A DNA stretch of 29,914 bases, taken from positions 1-29,914 of the IMG/VR virus record IMGVR_UViG_3300031660_000029. The stretch is one strand, 5' to 3'. Under the pieces are notes generated by a model. It was not told the DNA's origin and searched no databases. It saw nothing but the letters and a program-made list of their open reading frames with translations. This stretch comes from a virus. This document shows, piece by piece, positions 15-16,592 of this stretch (position 1 is the stretch's first letter; every line of letters starts with the position of its first letter). The position numbers and the translations under genes are program-made.

Positions 15-551
15 CTATGGCATAAGGATTCGGTGCAGGCCCTTGTCAATCAACCAAGCTCTAACGCCGTTCATTCTGATCCCATGTTTATACTTGACTA
101 GAATCTTAGCGTCAGACCAATCCATTGCCCACTGTTGAGTCTTAGTTAACTTCAACCCGTAGTCGGCATACATACTACGAACTAGCGCGTTCCTTATCGG
201 GATGTAGTGTGTGTTCAATGGTAGCCAGTTCCACAGAGAATTCGATCCCCTGCTACGGTTACTACCCGCTGCCACTGGTATCAGGTTTCTCTCTTCGTTG
301 GCAAACTGCTTCATCCTAGTCATGGCTGACTTCTTATCCAGAAGGTATTGCTCTTCAAACCCTGATCTCCACGCTAAGGATAGCGGCACTACATGCTCGG
401 AATCCCACTTATCGAGTCGGTTGCTGAGCATCTTGCCGTTGTAGTTATCTAGTAGCAGTATGTCACCCTTCCAGTGAATGCCGAGCCTGCCAAGGATGAG
501 CTTACGCGCCTGTCTTGAGTTGAACTTGAACAGCTTCCTGTTGTATTTCAT
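15..551 (-). CDS. HNH-type endonuclease, DUF1524-like
   Basis: The 178-residue product probably cuts DNA or RNA using a metal-dependent His-Asn type active site. Seen directly: residues 50-56 read DSEHVVP, followed by NLIPV at 89-93 and SNRSRG at 97-102. That spacing of a D-x-E-H-x-x-P motif and two later Asn residues is the pattern of the DUF1524/GmrSD C-terminal HNH-like family. There is no signal peptide and no Cys pairs, so it is not a zinc-bridged HNH. The ATG overlaps the stop of the upstream hydrolase gene in an ATGA junction, so the two are translationally coupled. Being last in the lysis cluster is unusual. It may be a mobile homing-type nuclease or a host-DNA or exclusion nuclease; the sequence does not choose between these. 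Confidence 0.7.
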   Translation of the reverse strand: MKYNRKLFKFNSRQARKLILGRLGIHWKGDILLLDNYNGKMLSNRLDKWDSEHVVPLSLAWRSGFEEQYLLDKKSAMTRMKQFANEERNLIPVAAGSNRSRGSNSLWNWLPLNTHYIPIRNALVRSMYADYGLKLTKTQQWAMDWSDAKILVKYKHGIRMNGVRAWLIDKGLHRILMP

Positions 552-1135
552 GGCTTAGAGAATAGGCCGTGAACAATACTTATCATCTTGTCTGACCACT
601 CGCTGAACCAGAATGAGTGGTTTATATTGAACAGCTTTCCATATATGTATTTGTGGTTCTTGTGCCGTAGGTCGTGAACTCCTGCATAGCCAATCCTGCC
701 TGCTTTGCCGAACACATGATTCGGAAGTAACGCCCCCCACCATACAGCCTTGTCCTTTGTATTTACGAACCAGTGACATTGCTCCATACTGCCTGCAGGC
801 CAAGCAAACTTATCGGACGTGCCTGCTCCTGAGAATATCACCACCCTGCCGAACTTGGCGCCTTGATCCACCGCCGACTGTACTACCAGTTGACCGTTAG
901 AGTGAGCGACCACATCCATTCCTTCTTCGTATTCCTTGAAGTGTAGCAGGCTACCACCGTCTTGAAGCAGGCTCGACTTACGCCAGTATGACCAGAAGTG
1001 TCTTTTTTCGTAATGGTAATACCGAACGTCATAACCGAGCCTCCCTAGCCTTTCTCCGAACAAATATAAAGAACCACCGTCCGTGGCGATCCCGTGAACT
1101 ATCAGAACTGGTTTACTTCGCATTGATACGGCCAC
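548..1135 (-). CDS. alpha/beta hydrolase (lipase/esterase-like)
   Basis: The 195-residue product looks like a small alpha/beta-fold hydrolase. Seen: strand-like KPVLIVHG at residues 8-15 (HG oxyanion motif), a nucleophile elbow AHSNG at 77-81 with Ser79, Asp128 in NTKDKAVW and His173 in NINHSF. These are in the right order for a Ser-Asp-His triad. Family knowledge supports an esterase, lipase or amidase, with no substrate visible. It lacks a signal peptide, so it would act in the cytosol or reach the envelope only through holin lesions. It sits directly after the lipoprotein gene and before the HNH gene. The first start is GTG at 1135; ATG at 1123 (MRSKPV) is equally possible, and neither has a clear Shine-Dalgarno. 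Confidence 0.7.
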   Translation of the reverse strand: MAVSMRSKPVLIVHGIATDGGSLYLFGERLGRLGYDVRYYHYEKRHFWSYWRKSSLLQDGGSLLHFKEYEEGMDVVAHSNGQLVVQSAVDQGAKFGRVVIFSGAGTSDKFAWPAGSMEQCHWFVNTKDKAVWWGALLPNHVFGKAGRIGYAGVHDLRHKNHKYIYGKLFNINHSFWFSEWSDKMISIVHGLFSKP

Positions 1136-3151: not shown

Positions 3152-6103
3152 CTACCCTTCTTCTAAAGTTTTAATTCGAGCTGTTAACTCTTGGATTGCT
3201 TTTACTAATACTGGTATCAGCGCTGCTTCTGCTAATTCTTGAGAACCATCATCGCGCTCACCCCACAGGACAAAACCGTCTTTAATGCCCTCATCAGCGT
3301 CAATTACGGCCTTCACTTCTTGCGCTATAAACCCGTGATTTGTTTTGGTGTTTTTGAAGACTTCAGCTGAACCTTCTTCATAAGAACTAAATGTTTCAGG
3401 CAGGTCGCCTAGCTCTCGGTAGTTCCAAGTTCTAGGACGCAGAGCATTTACAAAATCCAGACCCGCCGTAGCGTCTGCAATGTTTTTCTTGTATCGCTCA
3501 TCTGATACCGTACCCCATGCTGCGACACCGTGCGCTGTTCTAATATCCGAGCCGCCGCTGCCTATCGTACAGTACCCGCCACCCGCTGATATATTATAGC
3601 CTATACCTATAGCGTAACTATCTGTAGCGTATGTTGGCCTTGTGCCGTACCCTATGCAAGTGTTGTAGTTGCCCGTTGTTGTGGTATACGAGGTATACCT
3701 GCCTAGGCTAGTGTTTCTTGTTCCCGTTGTAAGGGCGGTCATAGCGGATTCACCAACTGCTGTATTGTAGCTTGCTGTAGTTTCGCTTTGCATCGCCCCC
3801 TGACCAATAGCCGTGTTTCTCGTTCCTGTCGTGTTATCCCTCAAGGCGCTATATCCGATCGCCGTATTGTAAATGCCTGACGTGTTGTACCTTAGCGCGT
3901 ATGTTCCAAGTGCCGCATTCCACGACCCCGTAGTCGTGGAGTTCATGGCGAAGTACCCGACCGCAGCGTTAAGTGATGCGGTGGTGTTGTTGTATAGTAC
4001 GTTCCCCCCTAGTGCTGTGTTGTAGCCGCCCGTGGTATTTTCCCTCATTGCGCTAACTCCAACAGCCGTATTAGTAGTTCCTGTTGTGTTGACATTCAAT
4101 GTATCGTTGCCTAACGCTACATTGTAATCGCCTGTCGTATTGTTCCGCAAAGAATAAGAGCCGAGCGCTGAGTTAGCACCGCCAGTAGTGGTGTCTTGTA
4201 ACGATAGGTAGCCAACTCCTGTGTTAATGTTGCCCGTCGTGTTGAAATGTAACGCATCGTATCCGTATGCTACATTGCCGTACCCTGTCGTGTTATCCCT
4301 CAAGGCGCTATAACCTGTGGCTACGTTGTTATAGCCCGTTGTGTTATTAGCCATAGCGGTAGTGCCGCTTGCCGTATTTTTTTCACCCGTAGTGTTGCTA
4401 CCTAACGTGGTAACCCCTGAAGCTATATTGCTATGCCCCGTAGTGTTGTCATTTAACGCGCTCTTACCTGTCGCTACGTTATTATACCCCGTAGTGTTAT
4501 TTGCTAACGAATTATACCCCGTTGCAGTGTTGCTAGCGCCTGTAGTATTCGCGTCTAATGCGTTCGTGCCGACTGCTGTATTGGTTTCTATGTCGCCGCC
4601 TCCCCTTACCGCAAGGCTTGTAAGTACCCCTACGCTAGTTATAGCGGGTTGTGCTGCATTAGTTACTGTAGCTGCTGTGCCACTTACGTTAGTTTGGTCA
4701 GCAGTCGCACCTACCTCAATGCCTGCAAGTTTAGCTACATTTGCCGCAACCTCTACTGCTAGTGCTGAGTTCTGGTCGCCACTACCCCAATCAGGAAACC
4801 CAATAGGGGTATCTTGATGTGAATACTTGGGTAGGGTGATTGCTGAGTTAGCCAAAGCGGTTCCTGCATTAGCTAGCAGAGTCACCTGTGTATCAGTAGT
4901 AGACACCCCCACAACAACCGCAACTGACGCGACATAGCGATACTTTACGGTAGAGTTCGTTAGTTGTATTTTTGTTCCCGCTTGAAGCTGTGTAGACCTA
5001 TCGAGGTCAACTATCTTAAATTTGTTAGCGTTAACATAAACCCAAGTGTCCTCACTGTTAGTCCATCCGTCTGGATCAGTCAACTCATCAAGAGAGGCCA
5101 GTGCTGTTGCTACATCAGAAATCTCGCCAATGTTGTTTGCGACAAGGTTGACGTTGACGCTGTTTGTTGATACCGCAGTTATATTTCCTACGTTGGTATT
5201 AACGGCACTAACGTCTGAAGCTATGTTGTTTACATTGGTTACGGCTGTGGAAATGCCTGCAACGGTGTTAATGTTTGCTGCGTTTGCTACTGTCGCGTTT
5301 ATGTTTGTCTCATTAGCTACAACAGAGTTTACATTGGCAGCAATGCCTGCAACGGTATTAATGTTGGATTGATTGTCAGCCGTTGCTGTGATGTTTGTCT
5401 CATTAGCAACCGCTGCATTAATGTTTGTAGCGTTCGCTACTGCAGCATTGATGTTTGTCTCATTAGCAACTGCTGCGGTTATATTAGCTGAGTTACCCGC
5501 CGCAGAGTTAATGTTTGCGGCATTGGCAACGGCTGAATTAATGTTGGAAGAATTGGCAACGGCTGAATTAATGTTTGTCGCGTTAGCTGCAACTGCGTTT
5601 ATATTTGTCGCGTTATCAGCAACGGCTTGCACGTCCTGAGTTAATGGCCCTGCTTCAAGATCACCAGAGCTGTCGAAAGACAATACCCTCGATGCACGAG
5701 AGGCGCTTGACGGCAATATAACTCCGTTAGTTTCAGAGGCAGGCATCTGTATGGATCTGTCAATCACTTCTTTGGACTGCTGATTCATCATCACTTGACG
5801 ATCTAGCTGTCGCTCGTGTACGTCAGGGCTGAACGGGTCACCCTCGACGTAATCAGCTTCCTGCGTGTACTCAATAGAGCGGATCATGGTGATCGTCTTT
5901 GAGCTTGCCGGTGCGACAGCGAATACGATGTTGCCACCGCTATCATTATCCAACCCGGAAACAGTAAAGCCAGTAGTCGTTAGAACGTCATCGACGTAGA
6001 CCGCGACATCCGACGTGGCAAATATCTTGAAAGTAAATGCAAACGTCTTATTCGATCCGTTTCCGACTAAGGTGGTTTTGTTGTTCTGTGTGCTGATAGT
6101 CAT
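3152..6103 (-). CDS. tail fibre with T7 gp17-like N-terminus, two repeat arrays and S74 intramolecular chaperone
   Basis: The 983-residue product is a trimeric receptor-binding fibre. Residues 1-140 match the T7 tail-fibre attachment domain (VGNGSNKTFAFTFKIFATSD; a later segment resembles TPDVHERQLDRQV). Residues about 161-330 are 17 decapeptides of the type VANATNINAA, probably a coiled coil or triple-stranded stalk. Residues about 519-824 are 18 exact-length 17-residue repeats with consensus NTTGxxNTAxGxxALxx, a trimeric beta-type repeat. The C-terminal 117 residues form a Peptidase_S74 chaperone starting at S867-DERYK, with GFIAQEV later, which guides trimerisation and then cuts itself off. 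The last residues form a coiled coil (LTARIKTLEEG). It lies between the internal virion proteins and the lysis genes. Confidence 0.92.
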   Translation of the reverse strand: MTISTQNNKTTLVGNGSNKTFAFTFKIFATSDVAVYVDDVLTTTGFTVSGLDNDSGGNIVFAVAPASSKTITMIRSIEYTQEADYVEGDPFSPDVHERQLDRQVMMNQQSKEVIDRSIQMPASETNGVILPSSASRASRVLSFDSSGDLEAGPLTQDVQAVADNATNINAVAANATNINSAVANSSNINSAVANAANINSAAGNSANITAAVANETNINAAVANATNINAAVANETNITATADNQSNINTVAGIAANVNSVVANETNINATVANAANINTVAGISTAVTNVNNIASDVSAVNTNVGNITAVSTNSVNVNLVANNIGEISDVATALASLDELTDPDGWTNSEDTWVYVNANKFKIVDLDRSTQLQAGTKIQLTNSTVKYRYVASVAVVVGVSTTDTQVTLLANAGTALANSAITLPKYSHQDTPIGFPDWGSGDQNSALAVEVAANVAKLAGIEVGATADQTNVSGTAATVTNAAQPAITSVGVLTSLAVRGGGDIETNTAVGTNALDANTTGASNTATGYNSLANNTTGYNNVATGKSALNDNTTGHSNIASGVTTLGSNTTGEKNTASGTTAMANNTTGYNNVATGYSALRDNTTGYGNVAYGYDALHFNTTGNINTGVGYLSLQDTTTGGANSALGSYSLRNNTTGDYNVALGNDTLNVNTTGTTNTAVGVSAMRENTTGGYNTALGGNVLYNNTTASLNAAVGYFAMNSTTTGSWNAALGTYALRYNTSGIYNTAIGYSALRDNTTGTRNTAIGQGAMQSETTASYNTAVGESAMTALTTGTRNTSLGRYTSYTTTTGNYNTCIGYGTRPTYATDSYAIGIGYNISAGGGYCTIGSGGSDIRTAHGVAAWGTVSDERYKKNIADATAGLDFVNALRPRTWNYRELGDLPETFSSYEEGSAEVFKNTKTNHGFIAQEVKAVIDADEGIKDGFVLWGERDDGSQELAEAALIPVLVKAIQELTARIKTLEEG
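3632..4549 (-). repeat. 18 tandem 51-bp coding repeats (17-residue NTTG repeats)
   Basis: Within the tail fibre, 18 consecutive units of exactly 17 residues (918 bases) each begin NTTG, TTTG, NTSG or close variants, followed by N(T/V)AxG and an AL/AM/SL pair. Counting from the first unit at 4549 lands exactly at 3632, with no insertion or deletion. The nucleotide identity between units is moderate, so the array is old or under selection at protein level. Confidence 0.9.
5114..5623 (-). repeat. 17 tandem 30-bp coding repeats (decapeptide VANxTNINA)
   Basis: In the tail fibre, 17 consecutive decapeptides (510 bases) carry Asn at three fixed positions with V/A and I between them, for example AVANETNINA. 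The first unit starts at 5623 and the last ends at 5114 without length change; the final four units have diverged. The array lies between the attachment domain and the middle of the fibre. Confidence 0.88.
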
Positions 6104-6112
6104 AGTATCGCC

Positions 6113-9034
6113 TTATAGTGATGGGTTGTTTTCAAGCCGGTCAGATTTCTTGTTGCCGGTGAATGGCTTTTGAAGCGATCCACCACCACTTTCCAGTAAT
6201 TTTACACCTGCTTCGTTCAGTTCTCTAGCATATCGGTCACGAAACTTCTTTGCGGCGTTATCTCTGCCGATCCGAGCATCTCTTGCCAACCAGTATCTTC
6301 GACCTACGCGAACCTCGTCACTGCCCTCTCGGCTGTCCTCGTACTTCTGCGTGCGTATGGTTGCGCTCCACAGCTTATATCTTTCTTTGCCGACAGTTCT
6401 CTGCCACTGGTAGTACATCTCTCCGTCGGGATCAACTGCCACGAGATCAAGGTCAATAGACCTACCGTACTGCTCAACATAGAACGTCAACTTACTTGTT
6501 GGTGCAGTGAATCCCATTCCTTGCTCAAACAACTCGTTCGACAGCACATCGTTGTGTTCAATCATAGACATGCGAGATCCACTCATGTTGTAAGCGTGCC
6601 AATCTAAGCTATCCATGATGACGTCATTGCCATACAGATCCACCTTGGCCCTTAGATCTTTACGGTGCAGTGGCGAACGCTTCATCAATTGCTTGATGAT
6701 GTTATTCATCATGCCGGACGTCTTAGTCTCACGCATCATTGGGTGAGTGCTGACTGAGGCGTCAGGATTCTTCTCCATAAACTTATCAAGCTCTTCAGGC
6801 GTTCCGAACTTATGCTCTGACAGGGTGCCATTCTTTGATTCAGTTGTAGCTACGAACCCATTGTCGGTTGCCTTAGCCAACCACGATAAGTGGCTCGGAA
6901 TCACGAACGACGCTACCTTCTGTCCAACGAGGCGATTGAAGTTGTCTGCAGACGAGTTTCTGCCATCAAACAAGTTAAACATGTCGCCAAGACTTCTGAA
7001 GTATGCTTTGTCAGAGTAATATTCGCCAAGCCCTACCGCGACAGCCATCCAAGCTGTCTCACGCGCAGACGGATCGTTGAACGATTGAGCTGTAGCGACA
7101 CCCTGCGCCATCATACCAATCTGCATACCAATTGGATCTGCTCGATTGTATGCGTGATACGCATCATTGCGATAGAATGACCACGGCTGTATGCCGTTCT
7201 GTTGCCAGATCTTCTGTTGCGCCCGGCTCTTTGGGTAAGCGCCGGTAATTAGTGGTCGTGGTACCTCAACGGTCTCCCCACTAGAGGTCTTAACCTGCTC
7301 GACATTAAGCATTGCGAGGAGAACACCGGCCTGAATCGTAGAACCAAGCGCCACCTTTGAGGCTGCTATGTCACGCTCGGCACCACCCTTTTTCCACTGA
7401 TCTCTCCACTGCTTTGTCGCAGGGGCCAAGAATGTACGCTCTGTAGCGAACTTCACAATGTTGGTGGGCGTTCTGACGTAAGGTAAGAACATTTTTATGA
7501 ACGGTGTCGAGCTTGCTGCTGACTGCACCTTTTGGCTGAACTCGTCTGTGAGGCCGTTAGTGAATGTGTTGAACTCCGCATAATCAATTGCGGCGTCATT
7601 AACTACTCCTGAGTAAACCTCATCTTCGCCTGACAGAATCTTATGTACTTTCGCGGTGTACTCTTCGCTGCCGTACTCAAGCCCTTCTTGAAATGCTGAC
7701 CGGCGCGAGTGAGCATACGACTGCATATTGTAATTTATCACCTTGTAGACTTCATCTGCTGCGCCGAGCATCCTGAATGGCGTTCTTATCATCCAAGGTG
7801 CCAAGGCGTCAATCATCTTGCCCCAAGGTGAGTTCATATTCTCACCAAGCAAGTTCTCTGCTGAGATAGATGGCTTAAAATATCCATCAACCTTAACGGC
7901 ACCCTTGCTCATAAGAAAGTCTGGATTCTTTTCAGCGTCGCGAAATGCCTTAGCAAATATCTTCGGAGCACTAACCATGCCCTCAATCAATGCCTGCATC
8001 ATCGCGTTCGCTTCTTGCAACATAACGCGATCAACAACACCTTCACCGCCTGCATTCTTCCACATCATATCTCTGCCCTTGCCTATGAATGACGCTGCGT
8101 ATCGCTCACCAACACCAGTCAAGGTTGAAGCTATATTGCCAACTTGGTTTGCAATATGGGTGGTCGGTTGCCATAAGTGACTCGCGCTGATCCATTCATT
8201 GATCGCTTGAGTCTTACGCTTGTATTTATTCTGTACGGCAAAGTCTGTGATCCTGCCTAGATCATCACCGAGGCTCAAGATAGCATCAGCCATCTTTTGA
8301 GTTGTGTTGGTGCCACCCATCTGCAGCATGGCGACTTTCATCTGCTCCATCATCCGATCATCAGTACCAATCGTGATCTTCAGTGCGTTCAATGCTCGAC
8401 CAGTCTCATTTGCTGCGCCTGTAAACGCATGGAACAAGGCCGCCTGTTTAGCCACAAGAGCTCGGTACCTGTATTCTTTAGCTATGTCGCCTTGAGCAAG
8501 TTTAATCTCTTTAGAGGCGTCTCTGAGCTCAACTGCGCCCATAACCATTAACTGCCTTCCTCTGGTTAATTCTTCTGCGGTGCGAATGCTCTTGCCTTTC
8601 TTCAGCCATTGGCTGACAGTTTGGCTGTTTGCAAGCGCTTTGTTGACAGTTTCAGCGTGCGTCTGGTGGTCAGCAGGGTTTTTTGATAGCGATCCCACCG
8701 GGCCATCCCATAAGAACGGCGAGTCCATCATTGCCTTAATATCATCAGCACCGTCGATAGCATGTAGGCTGAAGTTGCGTGACTCGTGCCGGTCAGAATT
8801 TACACTCCTATCTGCGTTGTCTATTGCTTCCTTCGCCATTGGCTCTGGTGCCAACCTCGTAGTTATATCATTAACTTCGTTCGGCGTAAGGTTGTCTGGT
8901 CGTTTCAGGTCTTCGCTCTTTAATGCGCCGACAATGCCTGCCTCTACATCGTTGTACACTGACTTAGCTGCATCAACCCCTGACTTAATCAAGCCAACGG
9001 CCTGCTTTACAGTTCCTTTAGGTGCGCTTGGCAT
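6113..9034 (-). CDS. internal virion protein, large polyvalent-protein-like C-terminal part
   Basis: The 973-residue product is mainly helical and lacks signal sequences. I recognise segments typical of giant phage virion/polyvalent proteins: WQPTTHIANQVGNIASTLTG (about 290-310), PFRMLGAADEVYKVINYNM (about 425-445) and MFLPYVRTPTNIVKFATER (about 515-535). Such proteins are carried in the head and are probably injected with the DNA. The N-terminus MPSAPKGTVKQA resembles that of the upstream gene product. The C-terminus is charged (RDARIGRDNAAKKFRDRYA). The ATG overlaps the previous stop as TAATG, so synthesis is coupled. No catalytic motif is evident. A cytosolic role is possible but less likely given the position between ejection proteins and tail fibre. 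Confidence 0.65.
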   Translation of the reverse strand: MPSAPKGTVKQAVGLIKSGVDAAKSVYNDVEAGIVGALKSEDLKRPDNLTPNEVNDITTRLAPEPMAKEAIDNADRSVNSDRHESRNFSLHAIDGADDIKAMMDSPFLWDGPVGSLSKNPADHQTHAETVNKALANSQTVSQWLKKGKSIRTAEELTRGRQLMVMGAVELRDASKEIKLAQGDIAKEYRYRALVAKQAALFHAFTGAANETGRALNALKITIGTDDRMMEQMKVAMLQMGGTNTTQKMADAILSLGDDLGRITDFAVQNKYKRKTQAINEWISASHLWQPTTHIANQVGNIASTLTGVGERYAASFIGKGRDMMWKNAGGEGVVDRVMLQEANAMMQALIEGMVSAPKIFAKAFRDAEKNPDFLMSKGAVKVDGYFKPSISAENLLGENMNSPWGKMIDALAPWMIRTPFRMLGAADEVYKVINYNMQSYAHSRRSAFQEGLEYGSEEYTAKVHKILSGEDEVYSGVVNDAAIDYAEFNTFTNGLTDEFSQKVQSAASSTPFIKMFLPYVRTPTNIVKFATERTFLAPATKQWRDQWKKGGAERDIAASKVALGSTIQAGVLLAMLNVEQVKTSSGETVEVPRPLITGAYPKSRAQQKIWQQNGIQPWSFYRNDAYHAYNRADPIGMQIGMMAQGVATAQSFNDPSARETAWMAVAVGLGEYYSDKAYFRSLGDMFNLFDGRNSSADNFNRLVGQKVASFVIPSHLSWLAKATDNGFVATTESKNGTLSEHKFGTPEELDKFMEKNPDASVSTHPMMRETKTSGMMNNIIKQLMKRSPLHRKDLRAKVDLYGNDVIMDSLDWHAYNMSGSRMSMIEHNDVLSNELFEQGMGFTAPTSKLTFYVEQYGRSIDLDLVAVDPDGEMYYQWQRTVGKERYKLWSATIRTQKYEDSREGSDEVRVGRRYWLARDARIGRDNAAKKFRDRYARELNEAGVKLLESGGGSLQKPFTGNKKSDRLENNPSL

Positions 9035-10851
9035 TACTTCTTACCCCCAATCTTACGGTACGTCATTGACGAACCATCTTTGGTTAAACTACTGTCGTCA
9101 CCCCTAACTTCAGAGCCGATAGAGCTAGACTCTAAACGTCTACTGCGTTCAAGTCCTGCAGCGTCTCTGGCAACTCCAGTTCCATTTCGGTTGTCCAAGG
9201 ACTTGGGACCCCGTCTGGATAGTCGTAGTCCAGATAGTTCGCTCTCGTAACTGGAATCGATGACAGCTCCAGAGCCTGTAATGTTAGATTCTGCCCACTC
9301 TGGTGGGTTGATTCCTCCGGCGTATTCAACGACGTTGCCTCTTGCTTCTTCATAGCTTGCTGCTCCTGTTTGGTATTGTTTCCACATATCTTCAGTGGTT
9401 TTTACGTTGGTTTTGTTTGACTTCCACGCCGCCGGGAATAGTCCGCGAACAGCCTCCCATGTGATGGACTGCATCTGTCTTGGAAGTATACCACGTTGCG
9501 CGGCTGCTATCCTGTAGGCATCAGCAAAGATCCCATAGGTTCCTCTGGCGCCAGTAAGCGAGTCAGACACCCCGGCACCAAGGTTGTGTTGAACCTCGAT
9601 AGACTTTCCTGATAGTGGCCTCAACAGACCTGCAGCGACAGCATGAGTGTCAATAGTGACGTCGCCATGAGCCCCGTGAGGGTTCACAATGTTATTATAA
9701 AAGTTCCTAACCTTATGGGCATTGCCCAGTTGATCGCTAATATTCTGGGGGGATGGATCATTGTAGATACTCACGGCCTTTGATATTTGCGACAAAGACC
9801 CCCACGCGGTCTCCATTGGCTTGCCTTTGCCTGTTAACCGATCCCCCGCAAACTCGCCTTCTGGTGTAATTATCCTATGGGTTCTTGCGTTGTGTGCTTC
9901 GTCATACGCCCTAATCCAACCTGACTTAAATAATGGGTGTACGTCTTTAAGGGCTTTGCCTGTGATGCCTTCAATCATCCCCGCGAACACGGGCTTAGCG
10001 TATATTCTTTCAACGACCTTCTGCATAGCATCATCGAAGACAAACTCTTGGCTTTCTGATAGCGCACTGACCACCCTCTCTCCAAGTGATACGTTCATAA
10101 ACCAGTCACGCTGCGGAGACTGTACTGCGATCATTCCGGCGATAGTTTCCTCATTCACGCTGAACTGCTCTGCGTATCGCTCAGATAGCGCCCGACCACC
10201 GTCATACCACATCGAGCTTCTCTGTCTTGTCACGTCGTCAACCTCGTCATGCAAGTAAAGTAGGTTGTCTACAATATGCTTGGTGAAGTCATCGACCACA
10301 AGTCCTGAGTCTTCTGGGTTAGGCCCCGCCTTATAGTTTGGGTAAGCCTTAATAAGGTTAGCCACTCTCGGCTCTGCATTGGCAAGAGACTCGCGACCTA
10401 CCGTCAAAACGTCCTTGACAGGGTCGGCAATTATTGGATTCTTTTTTGTCACCTTAGCTGTAGGAACCATCGTGCTTGCACGCTTATCGTCACCAAGCTG
10501 AACTGCTTTGTCGGCACGATCCATTGGAAGCCCTGACTTCTCAGGATAGACCGCTGCATCGATGCCATTACCTTCAAGAGCTGCCTGAACTTCTGGCAAC
10601 TGCATTAGCTTAGCTGTATCAAGAGTATCTCTACGGCCTGTCACAGGCGCTTCTGGTGCCACGTCAGGGTTAGGGCTGCCTACAACATCGTCATATAGTG
10701 CCTTAGCTCCACCGACCACATCGTCGACAATATTACCGGCACCTTCAAGGGTATCGTCGATCAGGTTACTAGCGCCTTCGACAGCGCCTTCGACAGCGCC
10801 TTCAGCGGCTCGTGCTGCTTTGCTAACCACGCCTTTAGGTATTGATGGCAT
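9034..10851 (-). CDS. internal virion protein with possible HhH-GPD/DNA glycosylase-like domain
   Basis: The 605-residue product starts with a low-complexity acidic region (residues 15-60, EGAVEGA and DDVVGGA type). The conserved centre contains IAVQSPQRDWFMNVSLGERV (about 240-260), LGNAHKVRNFYNNI (about 372-385), VTIDTHAVAAGLLRP (about 395-410) and LPRQMQSITWEAVRGLFP (about 453-471). The LGxxHK-xxx-FYNN then IDTH order resembles the helix-hairpin-helix followed by the catalytic-Asp VDTH segment of Nth/MutY-type glycosylases. This is an inference from pattern only. The last 100 residues are Ser/Gly/Arg-rich and look disordered. TAATG junctions link it to both flanking genes, so it is probably co-made and co-packaged with them. 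Confidence 0.6.
   Translation of the reverse strand: MPSIPKGVVSKAARAAEGAVEGAVEGASNLIDDTLEGAGNIVDDVVGGAKALYDDVVGSPNPDVAPEAPVTGRRDTLDTAKLMQLPEVQAALEGNGIDAAVYPEKSGLPMDRADKAVQLGDDKRASTMVPTAKVTKKNPIIADPVKDVLTVGRESLANAEPRVANLIKAYPNYKAGPNPEDSGLVVDDFTKHIVDNLLYLHDEVDDVTRQRSSMWYDGGRALSERYAEQFSVNEETIAGMIAVQSPQRDWFMNVSLGERVVSALSESQEFVFDDAMQKVVERIYAKPVFAGMIEGITGKALKDVHPLFKSGWIRAYDEAHNARTHRIITPEGEFAGDRLTGKGKPMETAWGSLSQISKAVSIYNDPSPQNISDQLGNAHKVRNFYNNIVNPHGAHGDVTIDTHAVAAGLLRPLSGKSIEVQHNLGAGVSDSLTGARGTYGIFADAYRIAAAQRGILPRQMQSITWEAVRGLFPAAWKSNKTNVKTTEDMWKQYQTGAASYEEARGNVVEYAGGINPPEWAESNITGSGAVIDSSYESELSGLRLSRRGPKSLDNRNGTGVARDAAGLERSRRLESSSIGSEVRGDDSSLTKDGSSMTYRKIGGKK
10772..10803 (-). repeat. 12-bp tandem repeat, about 2.7 copies
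   Basis: The 12-base unit GCGCCTTCGACA occurs twice in direct succession and then for 8 more bases (plus-strand reading). It encodes the repeated EGAV of the acidic N-terminal region of the 605-residue virion protein. Near-perfect identity suggests recent replication slippage. Confidence 0.85.
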
Positions 10852-13800
10852 TAGTTCGTGACCTCATTTTGTTCTTCGCGCTCTGCAGCCGTTGCCGCCA
10901 CAAGTGCAGGGATTGAGAATTGAGAATAGCTTTTCTTCTTGCCTGTAAGTGGTATCGACCAGTAGCCATGCTCGTCAACCTGAGTTGGAGTACCGCCATC
11001 AACGAGCGAAATCAACTCAGCCTTCTGTCCTGTCAAAGACTTAACGATCTTGCCATGCTCTCTGTCATACTGTGCCTTGTATCCCTTCTCGTACTTCTTC
11101 ATGTACCGTGAACTCAGCACATTACCGTTGGGCCATGCTATTGCTTCGTAGCCTTCATCTTTGGCTTGGATCATCGCTCTTGCTAGTGAGAGCCTCATCC
11201 ATGCCTTCTTCTTGAATGGCGCATCTGGTGGGCCTTTTAGTTCTGCGTCCAATGCTTTTGAGACATCGTTCACACCTTTCACTAAAGGCTCAATTATATT
11301 TATTTTGTCGCTACCCTCTGCGACGAGTTCCTGAAGTTTCACATAGAACGATCTGAGGCCTTGCGCTGCCTTAATGTTGAGATTAATATCTTTATATTGA
11401 GCAGGTATATTGCTAGGCCTTGATCCGTCGGCGTTGAACGACCTAAGATCTCGCGATGCCATCAACACCTTCAGGTTATCATCTCTTGCTTCAATCTTGT
11501 TTGCTATATGCGAAGCGCGATTTTCCGGCGATTCTGACAGCACTTCCAGTAGATGCCTTGAGAGAGGCCCTGTATATTCTTCTGAGTTACCACCAATACG
11601 ATCCACATCAAGCTCTGTCAAAAGCTCAAGCATCTCCGGGCTTTCATTCAAGGCCCTTCTCTTTTTGTACCTATCTGACAGCATGTCGTCAGGATCTAAG
11701 CCCTTGCTATAGCCATGCTTTGATCCTGCTGAGTGCAGGTCGGACTGGTTCTCGTCAATCATCAGAGTCCTGACAGGCTTGCCGCCGGGAGATGTTGCCA
11801 ACTTTCGGTCTGTCACTCGCAAGAATGCCACGATGTTTTCATCAGGAAATAGGTGGTCTTCTTTTTTGTAGCTGCCATCAATATCAGGCGATATGATCTT
11901 TAGCTCACGGTAGTTGTCATGCTCACCATCAGTCACCATATTGCCCCAATGAGTTTTATTAGGGTTCTGGTCGCCGCTCATGCTGTAGGCCATATCGTTC
12001 ATGTCACCCAATGCTTCTGCTATCGCGTGCTCTGCCTCTTGTAGCGTATAACCATCTTCGTTAATAAGATCAATCCCGCTTAGTTCTGCCCGGTACCCGG
12101 AAATATCGTTTCCTGACACACTTATATACTCATTGCCGTAAGCACCATTATAGACGTAATTAGGCGATTCATTATAGGTCAGATTTGCGTCTTTCTGTGC
12201 CATGAACTCATAATGATAGCGCAAACCCGCGTCGGTTCCGTCAGGGTTTTCTTCCCACCACCGCGCCGTGTCCACAAACTCAGGATTGATTACCCCTGCA
12301 TCGTAGTCCTCCATATAGTCAGCTACAATATCTCGCGGCTGACTCGGTCTTCGGTCTAGCTCAAGCTCCGGCATCACAAAGTCTGCTGCACCTCTAGGAT
12401 CTTCGTTATAAGGTAGCGTATTATCTGCAGTCACCTGCTCAACACGAACCATGTGATCTTGGGTGTACTGCACAACTTCTTCTTGAGTAAACTTCTTCTT
12501 TGGATCTTCGGTAAGGTACTTCTCGATGCCAAGCCATTCAAGTTCTTCAGCCTTTACGCCGGACGCCCTTTTCAGATCGGCAAAGATCTTTTGTCCTGAC
12601 ACAGCCTCATTAGTATCGCCAGTCTTGCTGAGTGCGCCTGCACCTGACTTCTTCGACCACTGAGGTATTAGATCTCCGCGTATCACACTCTCAACATGAG
12701 AGTGCATTCCTAATTCATCAATCTTGAGGGGTATTAGGTTTCTCGTAGGTGCATCAGCGTGCTTTACCGCTTCACCAGTGATTGAGCTTGTTTGTTCTTG
12801 CGTCAGCAACCTTTGTCCTGCAGGCAATGTCGCCGCTTGACCAATGCCCACAGTCGGAAGTGTTGTAGCCTGACCTATCCCTGATCCGGGCAGTGTTGGT
12901 GCTTGACCAATGCCCGTATTCGGAAGCGTTGGAGTTTGGCTAGTGCCGGAATCAGGCAGCCTTGTGGGTGCCGGTAATTGCGCTAAGTTTGGATCAAGCG
13001 TGTTCGGCTCTCTGCCGCCAAGCGATACCATGTAAGCGTCTACGATGCTTTGAGTTTGATTCTCATCAAGGTTCAAGCGGTCTGCAAGATCGTCTATAGT
13101 CATCTCTTCAGGGAATACTGCGGGATTGTAAGCGTCGAAGGTAATCTCTTCCACGTTACCATGACTTGCGGCAACAGCCCTGCTGTCCGTCAGGGTTGTT
13201 TTGGCGTCACCACCAGTCCATCCCTTGAATGTTTGACGCAGGCCTTTTACTGCCTTCGGGCCATGCCGAGCGACTATGTGACCGGCACCCGCGAATGCAC
13301 CGCCCATTGCCGCACCACCTGCCGCCCAATAAGCAGGAGTGGATGAGTCAAACTCCCTTCCTTCTGCTGTAGCGCGTAGATCTTCATCTGCTGCGCCCAT
13401 TGCGGCAGAGTATCCTGCGTTCTCGGCAACCGATACTGCTATAGGCAATAACGGCTTGTCTGCAATCCCTTTCAACAACTGTCTGAAATAGGTTTTGCTA
13501 GTATTCTTTGCGATGCCTCGTGCAGCAATACCCGCGACACTTGCAAGGCCGACCCACGCTAAAGGATCTGCGGCGGTATATGCCAACCCTCTGCCGAATT
13601 GCTTTAGAGTGATGTCTGTCTGGTCATAGGCGTCGATCATTTTCATCATCGACTTTATTGTAGTGGGATCTTGTTTGCTCATCACAGACCAGTCGATAAT
13701 CATCTTAGACAGGTTTGCGTTGTACGACGCAGCATAATTAACACCGTAGTCTCCAAAGTCTTCGTCGGACTCTAGTCTCGGCGGCAGTGGTGGCTGCTTC

Positions 13801-14039
13801 GCGCCCTGTGACTCGTTGCGTGCATAGGTAGCTTCTTGAGATGCTCTGTCGGCTGCATATACCTCTTTCGCAAGGCCGATAAAATCCCCTTGAGTCTTCA
13901 GGACAGACTCGTCTGTAGATGGTGAGCCGGTAGGCTCAAAGTCAGATGACTCAAACTCATCTGGAAGTCCTTCATCTGGAAGTGCTGCTCGGCGTCCGTG
14001 GACGTAGCTTTCAATAGGGCTTATACGGTTATCATTCAT
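10851..14039 (-). CDS. internal virion protein with polyvalent-protein 'EIQSD/IAW' domain
   Basis: The roughly 1062-residue product has three parts. Residues 145-260 are Gly/Ala-rich and hydrophobic (YTAADPLAWVGLASVAGIAA, AYWAAGGAAMGGAFAGAG), consistent with membrane-inserting ejection proteins. Residues about 359-406 are 11-residue TLPxxGIGQAx repeats. Residues about 590-1000 carry DNYRELKIISP, the motif LMIDENQSDLH and WMRLSLARAMIQAKDEGYEAIAW. I know these from giant phage polyvalent proteins as ...NYREL...EIQSDWHQ...W..LALKR...GYD.IAW. The function of that domain is unknown; the invariant acids suggest an enzyme. The apparent first start is GTG at 14045; I prefer ATG at 14039, overlapping the previous stop by 8 bases. 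The next gene starts in a TAATG junction. Confidence 0.68.
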   Translation of the reverse strand: MNDNRISPIESYVHGRRAALPDEGLPDEFESSDFEPTGSPSTDESVLKTQGDFIGLAKEVYAADRASQEATYARNESQGAKQPPLPPRLESDEDFGDYGVNYAASYNANLSKMIIDWSVMSKQDPTTIKSMMKMIDAYDQTDITLKQFGRGLAYTAADPLAWVGLASVAGIAARGIAKNTSKTYFRQLLKGIADKPLLPIAVSVAENAGYSAAMGAADEDLRATAEGREFDSSTPAYWAAGGAAMGGAFAGAGHIVARHGPKAVKGLRQTFKGWTGGDAKTTLTDSRAVAASHGNVEEITFDAYNPAVFPEEMTIDDLADRLNLDENQTQSIVDAYMVSLGGREPNTLDPNLAQLPAPTRLPDSGTSQTPTLPNTGIGQAPTLPGSGIGQATTLPTVGIGQAATLPAGQRLLTQEQTSSITGEAVKHADAPTRNLIPLKIDELGMHSHVESVIRGDLIPQWSKKSGAGALSKTGDTNEAVSGQKIFADLKRASGVKAEELEWLGIEKYLTEDPKKKFTQEEVVQYTQDHMVRVEQVTADNTLPYNEDPRGAADFVMPELELDRRPSQPRDIVADYMEDYDAGVINPEFVDTARWWEENPDGTDAGLRYHYEFMAQKDANLTYNESPNYVYNGAYGNEYISVSGNDISGYRAELSGIDLINEDGYTLQEAEHAIAEALGDMNDMAYSMSGDQNPNKTHWGNMVTDGEHDNYRELKIISPDIDGSYKKEDHLFPDENIVAFLRVTDRKLATSPGGKPVRTLMIDENQSDLHSAGSKHGYSKGLDPDDMLSDRYKKRRALNESPEMLELLTELDVDRIGGNSEEYTGPLSRHLLEVLSESPENRASHIANKIEARDDNLKVLMASRDLRSFNADGSRPSNIPAQYKDINLNIKAAQGLRSFYVKLQELVAEGSDKINIIEPLVKGVNDVSKALDAELKGPPDAPFKKKAWMRLSLARAMIQAKDEGYEAIAWPNGNVLSSRYMKKYEKGYKAQYDREHGKIVKSLTGQKAELISLVDGGTPTQVDEHGYWSIPLTGKKKSYSQFSIPALVAATAAEREEQNEVTN
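12818..12961 (-). repeat. 33-bp coding repeat (11-residue TLPxxGIGQAx), about 4 copies
   Basis: Successive 11-residue units TLPNTGIGQAP, TLPGSGIGQAT and TLPTVGIGQAA are preceded by the divergent RLPDSGTSQTP and followed by the partial TLPAGQ. They form a Pro/Gly linker between the hydrophobic N-terminal part and the conserved C-terminal domain of the virion protein. Confidence 0.85.
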
Positions 14040-15840
14040 AGCCACGGTTTCCGTCTTTGTCAGTTACTGTCTTGATGCTGAGGTGATCTCTAGTCTCTTG
14101 AGAGAGTATATCTACAATGCTATCAACCTTGAGTAGTCCTTTAAACTGCATTACCACGTCGATGTTCTGCTTCTCTTTAGCCGCCCAAGCCTGAAGCCTC
14201 AAATACTCGCCTGAAGATGTTGGGAACGTGTCTGTTGCAGCGCCATTAACATTTAACTCTGTGAAGTCATGCACATACTTATGGGCTTTAATCATATCAA
14301 ACGACTTCAAACCATCGCCACCATAACTAGGAATATTGGTACCCTGAAGTATCTCATCCAAGAACCAAGCGTTGAGATCTACCGGCTCCGGCATTGTGCC
14401 ATCAGCGTTCGGCTTATCTTCTGCGTCAAGCAATAGTGTAGCCCTAGCCAACCAACGATTCTCTTCCTGAATAGCAAGGCCTGTCTCGTTACCATTTCTG
14501 TCTGTTCGAGGTAGTCTGCTTGACACGGTGCCTTGTATTAGTGACTTGAGACTCTTATATCGCTTGGCTTGCCCGTTGTTTCGTGCAGTCGTGAGAGCTG
14601 TGCGCATGGTGTGAGAGCCAAGACTGCCTGCATTGTCATTCAAGAATGCATTAGCTTCATTGTAGTGTTCAGACAACCCTGTCTGCCGGTACTGATTAAT
14701 AAGTGTAAGTGCTCCCTGTTCGACACGGTGGTCAGGATCGCCACCCTTAACCATAGCGTTCATGGTCTTTATGATGCCCATAGTGTTCTCAACACCCATA
14801 GTCTTGACCATCCGCGCTATCGCGGCAGGATCTTGTATAGTTAAAGCCGCAGTTGTTGTTGCATCACGGCCAGTCTGGACTGACTGCACTGCCATGCCCT
14901 GCAAGAATAGGAACGTGTTGTACTCTCTCTGCTGCTCGACCATCACGGATCGGCTATCATCAACAGACTTAACTTTTGACTCGATCACTTTATATTGAGC
15001 TGAGCTAATTTCGTTGTTGATATATTGTTCGGTAGCGTCGTTATAAATTTGCTCAGTCCTGCTGTAGAACTCACCGTCTTCCATCTCTGCGTCATCTGAA
15101 CTTTCATTAAGAACCGCTAGCCTGCCTATGGTGTTGCGGGTATTTAATGACTGGACGTGTTCGCGCTCAAGGGCCGGTGCGTCACTAGGCAGAATAAGCC
15201 CGGTTTCAACCATGTCATTAATGGTGGATTTAATCATCCCCTTTGTCGGAGCGTCCTCTAATAGCTCCAATGAGTCCTGTTTTGCAGTCTCAATTTTAGC
15301 GTCGCTATTGAAGTTAAAGATGTCCTCGCTGTGCTTATAGTCAATTTTAAACCTCTCAGCCTCAAACAACACCTTAGCTCGTTCGTTTGTTAGGCCGCTC
15401 TCGTAAATAAGCTCGGCTGCCGACGAAGAGCCTTGGTCGTACTGATCAGCAAATCCATCAGACAATATGGTTCGCTTACCGTCTTTAGAGGTTTCAGTGA
15501 TCGGCTGCTGCATCTGTCCACGACGGATATTTGCTGCATCCCTCTGGTACTGGTTCACGGCTCTCGATGCCTGTGACCTAAACTCTGCCTCTTCGACCTT
15601 TACCGCAAGTGCTTGCCGCCGAGTTGCTATGCCGTCCATCACGCCAAGCACAGTGCCTGCGATCTGCTCAGCCACTCTTACTTTCGTATTGCCCTCTTGA
15701 ACTGCCATGCCAACCGTGCGTTCAGGGATGAACCGTTCGTTTCTTACCCTGTGCGGAGTGACGTTGCCAATCAAGGCCGCGCTAGTCCTCGCGCTTGCCA
15801 TTGAGGTGTTTGTCGTATTTTTAAATTGAGTTAATTTCAT
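14032..15840 (-). CDS. putative internal virion / ejection protein, helical
   Basis: The 602-residue product is charged and almost entirely helical, with Gln/Ala/Glu-rich stretches (QALAVKVEEAEFRSQASRAV, about residues 77-96). It has no signal peptide, membrane span or catalytic motif that I recognise. Its N-terminus is basic and unstructured (NVTPHRVRNERFIPERTVG). Position between a gp14-like protein and the three giant virion proteins suggests it is part of the internal head/ejection apparatus. Proteins of similar size and composition occupy the same place in several podoviruses, but I cannot name a family. Its ATG is in a TAATG junction with the upstream gene. Confidence 0.6.
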   Translation of the reverse strand: MKLTQFKNTTNTSMASARTSAALIGNVTPHRVRNERFIPERTVGMAVQEGNTKVRVAEQIAGTVLGVMDGIATRRQALAVKVEEAEFRSQASRAVNQYQRDAANIRRGQMQQPITETSKDGKRTILSDGFADQYDQGSSSAAELIYESGLTNERAKVLFEAERFKIDYKHSEDIFNFNSDAKIETAKQDSLELLEDAPTKGMIKSTINDMVETGLILPSDAPALEREHVQSLNTRNTIGRLAVLNESSDDAEMEDGEFYSRTEQIYNDATEQYINNEISSAQYKVIESKVKSVDDSRSVMVEQQREYNTFLFLQGMAVQSVQTGRDATTTAALTIQDPAAIARMVKTMGVENTMGIIKTMNAMVKGGDPDHRVEQGALTLINQYRQTGLSEHYNEANAFLNDNAGSLGSHTMRTALTTARNNGQAKRYKSLKSLIQGTVSSRLPRTDRNGNETGLAIQEENRWLARATLLLDAEDKPNADGTMPEPVDLNAWFLDEILQGTNIPSYGGDGLKSFDMIKAHKYVHDFTELNVNGAATDTFPTSSGEYLRLQAWAAKEKQNIDVVMQFKGLLKVDSIVDILSQETRDHLSIKTVTDKDGNRGYE

Positions 15841-16592
15841 TAATCACCTCCACCCGCGCCAGAGGTTGTGTAACCTGTATTGGCGATGTCTGCCTTATAA
15901 TTTCCGTAAATGCTCGCACCTTGGCTAGCGGCGCTACCAATCGTGCTTAAAATAGTTCCGTAGGACTGTGCGTTAAGCTGCTTTGCCGCTGAATTACCCC
16001 TAGATCGAGTTGCGTCGGCTGCGCCAGTTTGCTCATTCAAGTATATCTCTGCCTCTATTCCTGCGTTGAATCGTATGGCGGCTGCATTAAGAGAGCCAGT
16101 CATCATAATTACGTTAGCTCGGTCATTCTCTTGAGCTAGATAATTGAACACGGTCATTACGCCGCGATCTTTTATAAAGTTTCGCTCTGTCTCTGCTTCA
16201 TCAAGTTCGTTCGATAAGAATAGTAGCGGCGTACCTTGGTTGACTGCGAATCCTGTTGCTGCAGCGCCTGATCTAATTGACCCTGCAAGCTGCTTCTCGC
16301 CACGAACATGCCTGCGGATTTCCTCTACATACTCAATTGTGAGTAGCTCGGCGTTACGCTGCGCGTTGCGACGTATAGCTCCGGCGTTTGCACCGGCAAT
16401 CATCATCGTCGTATCTGCGTTGAAGTCTGCTGCGGTTAAGGATAGCTCGTTATTGCGTCTTGCCATCCCTAATATGCTTGCTGCATTGGCTGCGCCCTGT
16501 CTTCGGGCGTCACGAGCCGCACCTCTTTGTACCGAGGCGTTATACACGCCGCTCACGACAGTTACCGCCAGAGCCGATACTGCGACGCTCAC
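15840..16592 (-). CDS. internal virion protein, T7 gp14-like
   Basis: The 250-residue product is Ala-rich and helical. It begins with a short hydrophobic helix (VAVSALAVTVVSGVYNASVQ), continues with Ala/Asn/Arg-rich helices (AANAASILGMARRNNELSLT), then a SGAAATGFAVNQGTPL segment near residue 107. That Gly-rich 'SG...G...GTPL' turn inside a long helix is characteristic of the gp14-like internal virion protein family, small ejection proteins that enter the outer membrane at infection. The C-terminus is Gly/Ser-rich. The gene is coupled to the cupin-like gene upstream (ATGA) and to the 602-residue protein downstream (TAATG). Confidence 0.68.
   Translation of the reverse strand: MSVAVSALAVTVVSGVYNASVQRGAARDARRQGAANAASILGMARRNNELSLTAADFNADTTMMIAGANAGAIRRNAQRNAELLTIEYVEEIRRHVRGEKQLAGSIRSGAAATGFAVNQGTPLLFLSNELDEAETERNFIKDRGVMTVFNYLAQENDRANVIMMTGSLNAAAIRFNAGIEAEIYLNEQTGAADATRSRGNSAAKQLNAQSYGTILSTIGSAASQGASIYGNYKADIANTGYTTSGAGGGD

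Follow-up and report, generated by a model that had tools for sequence, protein, structure and literature searches.

A predicted HhH-GPD DNA glycosylase domain encoded in a podovirus ejection cassette

DUF7178 is a domain filed under unknown function. Its predicted fold and conserved active-site residues give us high confidence that it has the fold, and belongs to the enzyme class, of the HhH-GPD DNA glycosylases. In the window, by which we mean the whole 29,914-base stretch of an IMG/VR virus record that was analysed, the domain lies in a 605-aa protein whose gene sits among genes for internal virion proteins, and it carries a Lys/Asp pair that aligns with that of Ogg2. We favour, with moderate confidence, a reading in which this protein is an ejected bifunctional glycosylase/AP lyase, nearest to Ogg2, that is encoded in a podovirus cassette and repairs an oxidised purine of the incoming genome. 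With this analysis DUF7178/phrog_3842, a family found in at least 591 stretches in one scan of viral contigs, gains a fold and an active site as well as an activity that can be tested.

Predicted fold and active site

The gene and the conserved parts of its product are as follows.

9034..10851 (-): 605-aa protein with the DUF7178 glycosylase-fold domain; ATG start, Pfam and phrog matches, TAATG at both ends
9262..10404 (-): modelled domain, residues 150-530, core HhH-GPD fold (AlphaFold2, VIA)
10102..10119 (-): SPQRDW, residues 245-250, putative counterpart of the HhH-GPD 'S/T.Q' stretch (conservation in A2/A3, weak hhalign comparison)
9691..9717 (-): HKVRNFYNN, residues 379-387, second helix of the HhH-like element (conservation, hhalign, model)
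9640..9657 (-): TIDTHA, residues 399-404 (conservation, hhalign, model)
9457..9474 (-): MQSITW, conserved C-terminal helix with near-invariant Gln and Trp (alignments, hhalign)

The 605-aa ORF matches Pfam DUF7178 (E 3.7e-25) and phrog_3842 (5e-26), which is likewise filed under unknown function. The Pfam match is split into two pieces because the window protein has an insert relative to the Pfam model; compared with stand-alone members the insert is ~90 residues long, at roughly residues 260-345 (alignment A4). A preliminary description, made from the sequence alone, had pointed to SPQRDW, HKVRNFYNN and TIDTHA, all of which are present in this ORF. The interval it gave, 9415-10130, covers residues about 241-479 and falls inside a larger conserved domain of about residues 180-500. 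A second family of unknown function, phrog_2878 (631 positions), is partly matched by all 60 members of set A2, in the window protein at residues 191-257, and is possibly a further, divergent branch of the DUF7178 family.

The window domain was modelled by AlphaFold2 from 55 sequences, with five rows from annotated records left out (mean pLDDT 94.1, pTM 0.91). At the HhH position the model has a pair of helices with a short turn between them. A Foldseek search of the PDB with this model returned nothing significant, only chance matches. In a VIA comparison with 997 PDB chains, five matches scored above Z 5, and every one has the glycosylase fold: Qng1/DUF2419 (8.4 and 8.3), Pa-AGOG (8.2 and 7.8) and mouse OGG1 (6.5), with cyclin A next at 2.7; a Z near 8 can reflect a common arrangement in helical proteins. 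For this reason a second, insert-free member was modelled, the 200-aa stand-alone protein of an S-CBP2-type cyanophage (pLDDT 96.5). Its top Foldseek matches were MjOgg and Tm1821, with probability 1.00, TM ~0.6 and E-values short of significance (5e-3 at best). VIA ranked MjOgg first (Z 13.1 over 174 residues, 3.4 A), followed by SsOgg (13.0) and Tm1821 (12.4), and at lower ranks EndoIII of B. stearothermophilus (10.6), AGOG (9.8) and hOGG1 (9.7). All 50 of the best 50 rows listed were HhH-GPD proteins. Both models have the all-helical, two-part glycosylase fold of the superfamily. An HhH-GPD fold had been set beforehand as the test of the proposal in the preliminary description, and the proposal withstood it with the window protein as with the stand-alone one.

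We compared four sets: A2 (n=60, window-type, including two actinophage proteins), A4 (n=19, mixed), A5 (n=12, diverse stand-alone) and A7 (n=54, closely related). Lys380 (codon 9714-9712), the predicted Schiff-base nucleophile, and Asp401 (codon 9651-9649), the predicted catalytic Asp, are invariant in A2 (60/60), A7 (54/54) and A4 (19/19). The invariance extends to those rows of the sets, 8 and 14 in number, that had been picked without the motif concerned. Since the two residues are invariant in all 60 A2 members, and since the ORF matches both DUF7178 and phrog_3842, the resemblance first noticed is not a product of chance. In the AlphaFold2 model, helices flank HKVRNFYNN and the next helix starts right after Asp401. 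This residue thus stands where the helix following the HhH begins, the place of the catalytic Asp in HhH-GPD enzymes, and it aligns with that of Ogg2 and of Nth/MutY/AlkA. Lys380 lies in the second HhH helix, as does the catalytic Lys of bifunctional glycosylase/lyases, and aligns Lys to Lys with Ogg2. Most members have His at the third motif position; Trp stands there in the two A2 proteins from actinophages. The Lys-to-Asp spacing of 18 in the stand-alone member (K116-D134) equals that of E. coli Nth (K120-D138). Around SPQRDW, positions S96, P97, W101 and N104 are conserved in A2/A3, and a weak hhalign comparison with the A7 profile places the segment on LTPQSKA of Ogg2. The Gln and Trp of the MQSITW helix are invariant in A4 and A7, and the helix aligns with the ELDxxLW helix of Ogg2.

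Profile comparisons were made with Ogg2 sequences collected from archaeal genomes with Pfam PF22175. The window-type set A2 alone gave weak, non-significant hhalign results against both Ogg2 (8/200 shuffles as high) and Nth/MutY/AlkA, and A7 alone was weak against Ogg2. We attribute this to the insert or to shallow diversity; a diverse stand-alone set was needed. Set A5 aligned with Ogg2 over 182 columns with a score of 52.4 and a probability of 93%, and none of 200 column shuffles scored as high (best 23.9). For A4 the score was 42.1 and the probability 75% (0/200 shuffles as high, best 20.4). In the A5 alignment three residues of DUF7178 are in register with their Ogg2 counterparts: the Lys with that in GxGxKEASHF, the Asp with that in (I/L)D(R/F)H, and the His with the Ogg2 His; the QAITW helix lies opposite ELDxxLW. 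The Asp of IDTH, whose conservation and alignment with a catalytic Asp the preliminary description had set as a test, is invariant and lies on the catalytic Asp of Ogg2 in a profile-profile comparison. Against Nth/MutY/AlkA, A4 scored 22.2, a value reached by 1/200 shuffles, and the unshuffled alignment again places Asp on Asp. A direct PDB sequence search with the protein or the profiles returned no glycosylase, and an NCBIfam search gave no match. No A2 member matched PF22175 at E up to 0.1, DUF7178 being matched instead, and in a tree Ogg2 and DUF7178 stand opposite each other across long branches. DUF7178 is therefore best described as a relative of Ogg2 (PF22175), not as a member.

The preliminary description had likened the protein to Nth/MutY-type enzymes. 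Its recognition of an HhH-GPD protein with a catalytic Asp stands; the nearest enzyme is Ogg2, and the Nth-type Fe-S motif C-x6-C-x2-C-x5-C occurs in 0/60 and 0/54 members, the 605-aa protein having no Cys at all. The canonical GxG hairpin was found in 1/60 and 0/54 members, so that the hxGxG signature of the superfamily is missing from nearly all of them. Variant hairpins exist among HhH-GPD enzymes, including AGOG, whose hairpin is atypical, as is that of DUF7178. With the strict signature lost, DNA binding may differ, and the superfamily assignment rests on the fold and the catalytic residues. Membership of Nth/MutY was rejected since both the Fe-S cluster and the GxG hairpin are absent. 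Together, the fold, the active site, the Lys, and the lack of an Fe-S cluster and a GxG hairpin lead us to place DUF7178 in the HhH-GPD superfamily as a bifunctional enzyme and a relative of Ogg2, outside Nth/MutY.

Genomic setting and relatives

Downstream of the capsid and tube genes, the gene order in the window is gp14-like, 602-aa ORF, 1064-aa ORF, DUF7178, gp16-like, tail fibre. The DUF7178 gene thus lies within a gp14-gp16 cassette, as do genes for T7-type internal virion proteins. Its companions in the cassette are as follows.

15840..16592 (-): gp14-like internal virion protein gene, start of the cassette (phrog_418, E 2.8e-4, a weak match)
14032..15840 (-): 602-aa ORF in the gp15 position, placed there by position only (no Pfam or phrog match)
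10851..14045 (-): upstream 1064-aa ORF, polyvalent-like large protein (weak phrog_7348 match; TAATG overlap with the DUF7178 gene)
6113..9034 (-): downstream 973-aa ORF, T7 gp16-like internal virion protein (phrog_6651, E 1.2e-15; TAATG overlap)

Coupled translation of the DUF7178 gene with its two neighbours is suggested by the TAATG overlaps on either side. The 1064-aa ORF has no Pfam match; its stretches MIDENQSDLHSAGSKHGY and EAIAWPNG resemble polyvalent proteins. Because no homology could be detected between the flanking window ORFs and the giant single ORFs of L011, the notion of one split polyvalent protein is a positional inference.

Three further ORFs of the window have features of their own. 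The tail-fibre-like ORF at 3152-6103(-) carries numerous repeats of the types NA(A/T)NI and TTGxxNTAxG. Its C-terminal SDERYKKNI segment resembles an intramolecular chaperone, and in many relatives the ORFs downstream of the gp16-like gene are homologous to the beginning of this ORF. A 195-aa ORF at 548-1135(-), beginning VLIVHGIATDGGSLYLFGERL, is alpha/beta hydrolase- or lipase-like and lies beside lysis genes. At the window end, a 178-aa ORF at 15-551(-) has an HNH-endonuclease-like pattern, DSEHVVPLS...RNLIPV.

The same setting recurs among relatives. Among the 57 relatives whose ORF is shorter than 900 aa and is followed by 1.5 kb or more of sequence, 35 have a gp16-like gene as the next one downstream of DUF7178. 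In larger ORFs, DUF7178 is joined with ART-PolyVal, LPD22, LPD37, InPase or GNAT, as in polyvalent proteins, which have been proposed to act early after delivery into the cell (PMC5512222). Gene position and polyvalent fusions together make it likely that the DUF7178 protein is delivered with the virion.

The family takes two forms. The insert-bearing form, ~300-380 aa, occurs within 500-850-aa ORFs beside a gp16-like gene or in ORFs of up to 4,350 aa. The stand-alone form, ~190-230 aa, is represented by 183 records, from phages of Mycobacterium, Gordonia, Streptomyces, Synechococcus, Prochlorococcus, roseobacters and others; its hosts include Actinobacteria, Cyanobacteria, Alphaproteobacteria, Bacteroidota and Acidobacteriota. 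A tree of representatives groups all sampled insert-bearing (virion-type) sequences in one clade (support 100/99), consistent with a single move of DUF7178 into ejection proteins. Bacterial and archaeal genome contigs hold 19 loci, among them three Bradyrhizobium chromosomal contigs (L103, L104 and L105) in which DUF7178 lies inside ~1150-aa ORFs, probably within prophages.

Stand-alone copies are among the first genes of the podoviruses A-4L, P12053L, S-CBP2 and ICBM2. In Synechococcus phage S-CRES3 (L153), a stand-alone DUF7178 gene (4986-5585) and a gene for a pyrimidine-dimer DNA glycosylase (9715-10209) lie ~4 kb apart, a pairing that suggests a setting of DNA-damage repair. Some actinophage stand-alone copies are labelled 'glycosylase', and the S-CRES3 copy is labelled N-glycosylase/DNA lyase; for the stand-alone form, therefore, annotators had already noted the idea of a glycosylase. 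A search of one literature library found no paper on DUF7178, and no prior description of HhH-GPD proteins in virions or of 8-oxoguanine in connection with polyvalent proteins or cyanophages. In the main text of the polyvalent-protein paper (PMC5512222), the words 'glycosylase' and 'base excision' are absent.

Proposed role and alternatives

What would a DNA glycosylase do in an ejection cassette? We propose that the DUF7178 protein is packaged together with the remaining internal virion proteins and driven into the cell along with the genome, where it would bind DNA and flip a modified purine, most probably an oxidised guanine, out of the helix. Asp401 would activate Lys380 and stabilise the leaving base; Lys380 would form a Schiff base with C1', beta-elimination would nick the strand, and host base-excision repair would complete the process. 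The purpose would most likely be to repair damage to the virion DNA, or damage suffered on entry, before host or phage gene expression. We put forward oxidised-purine repair as the role tentatively, at somewhat less than even confidence, and 8-oxoguanine as the substrate is a guess by analogy with the nearest fold.

An ejected glycosylase might instead be a weapon or a counter-defence, excising modified or normal bases from host or defence-marked DNA. In its favour, ART-PolyVal and other polyvalent partners are enzymes of conflict (PMC5512222), and hosts do use DNA glycosylases, for example Brig1, to defend themselves against phages (PMC11078745). We nonetheless consider this unlikely: the closest folds are those of 8-oxoguanine repair enzymes, and the spread of stand-alone copies across phages of five host groups suggests a general target, not a host-specific one. 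A less probable alternative is an N-glycosylase that acts, like Qng1/DUF2419, on nucleotides, nucleosides or RNA and not on DNA lesions. In favour of it are the degenerate state of the DNA-binding GxG hairpin and the top rank of Qng1/DUF2419 with the window model, where its Z of 8.4 is tied with the 8.2 of AGOG. The insert-free member, however, matches DNA glycosylases far better, and every sampled member keeps the Lys that is catalytic in bifunctional DNA glycosylases, so we give this explanation little weight. Very improbable is an inherited fold that now serves as a non-catalytic structural or DNA-binding part of the ejection tunnel, as the structural cassette and the large insert might suggest, because Lys and Asp, which such a part would not need, are the same in every member sampled, over many host phyla.

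On the preferred reading of an ejected repair enzyme, base excision would join the enzymatic activities presumed to enter the cell with phage DNA. As a broader and equally tentative suggestion, members of a widespread podovirus clade may package and inject a base-excision enzyme of their own, with which incoming DNA is scanned and repaired, or host or defence-marked DNA attacked, in the first minutes after infection and ahead of any gene expression. An activity of DNA repair or DNA attack would then be brought in as part of the virion; the target could be other than 8-oxoguanine.

Comparison with known systems

Among known phage proteins, there is a parallel with polyvalent proteins (PMC5512222), with whose domains DUF7178 is fused. 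Brig1, which removes alpha-glucosyl-hmC from T4 DNA (PMC11078745), and Brig3 (PMC13160076) are also DNA glycosylases in phage-host conflict. In contrast to DUF7178, they are host-encoded and belong to the uracil-DNA-glycosylase superfamily, not to HhH-GPD.

Of the enzymes with a similar fold, Qng1/DUF2419 (7U07, 7ULC) ranks first for the window model; it acts on queuosine monophosphate, not on DNA, and is absent among the matches listed for the stand-alone model. Nth/MutY enzymes share the fold, as the EndoIII match illustrates, and the Lys and Asp positions of Nth, whereas DUF7178 has neither the Fe-S motif nor an LPGVG hairpin and matches their profile more poorly. Pa-AGOG, an archaeal 8-oxoguanine glycosylase (1XQO/1XQP), is matched by both models (Z 8.2 and 9.8) and scores below Ogg2 for the stand-alone member. 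Ogg2 (PF22175, Ogg-HhH; MjOgg 3KNT/3FHF, SsOgg 3FHG, Tm1821 3N0U), a family of 8-oxoguanine DNA glycosylase/AP lyases from archaea and Thermotoga, shares the fold along almost the entire chain (Z 12-13, 172-181 residues). It is ~200 aa in size, like stand-alone DUF7178, and both have the Lys and D-x-H in register, a C-terminal Trp helix and no Fe-S cluster. The two differ in that identity is ~13% and the DUF7178 hairpin is GxxHK or GxK instead of GxG, and in that the virion form of DUF7178 has the ~90-residue insert and sits in ejection or polyvalent proteins.
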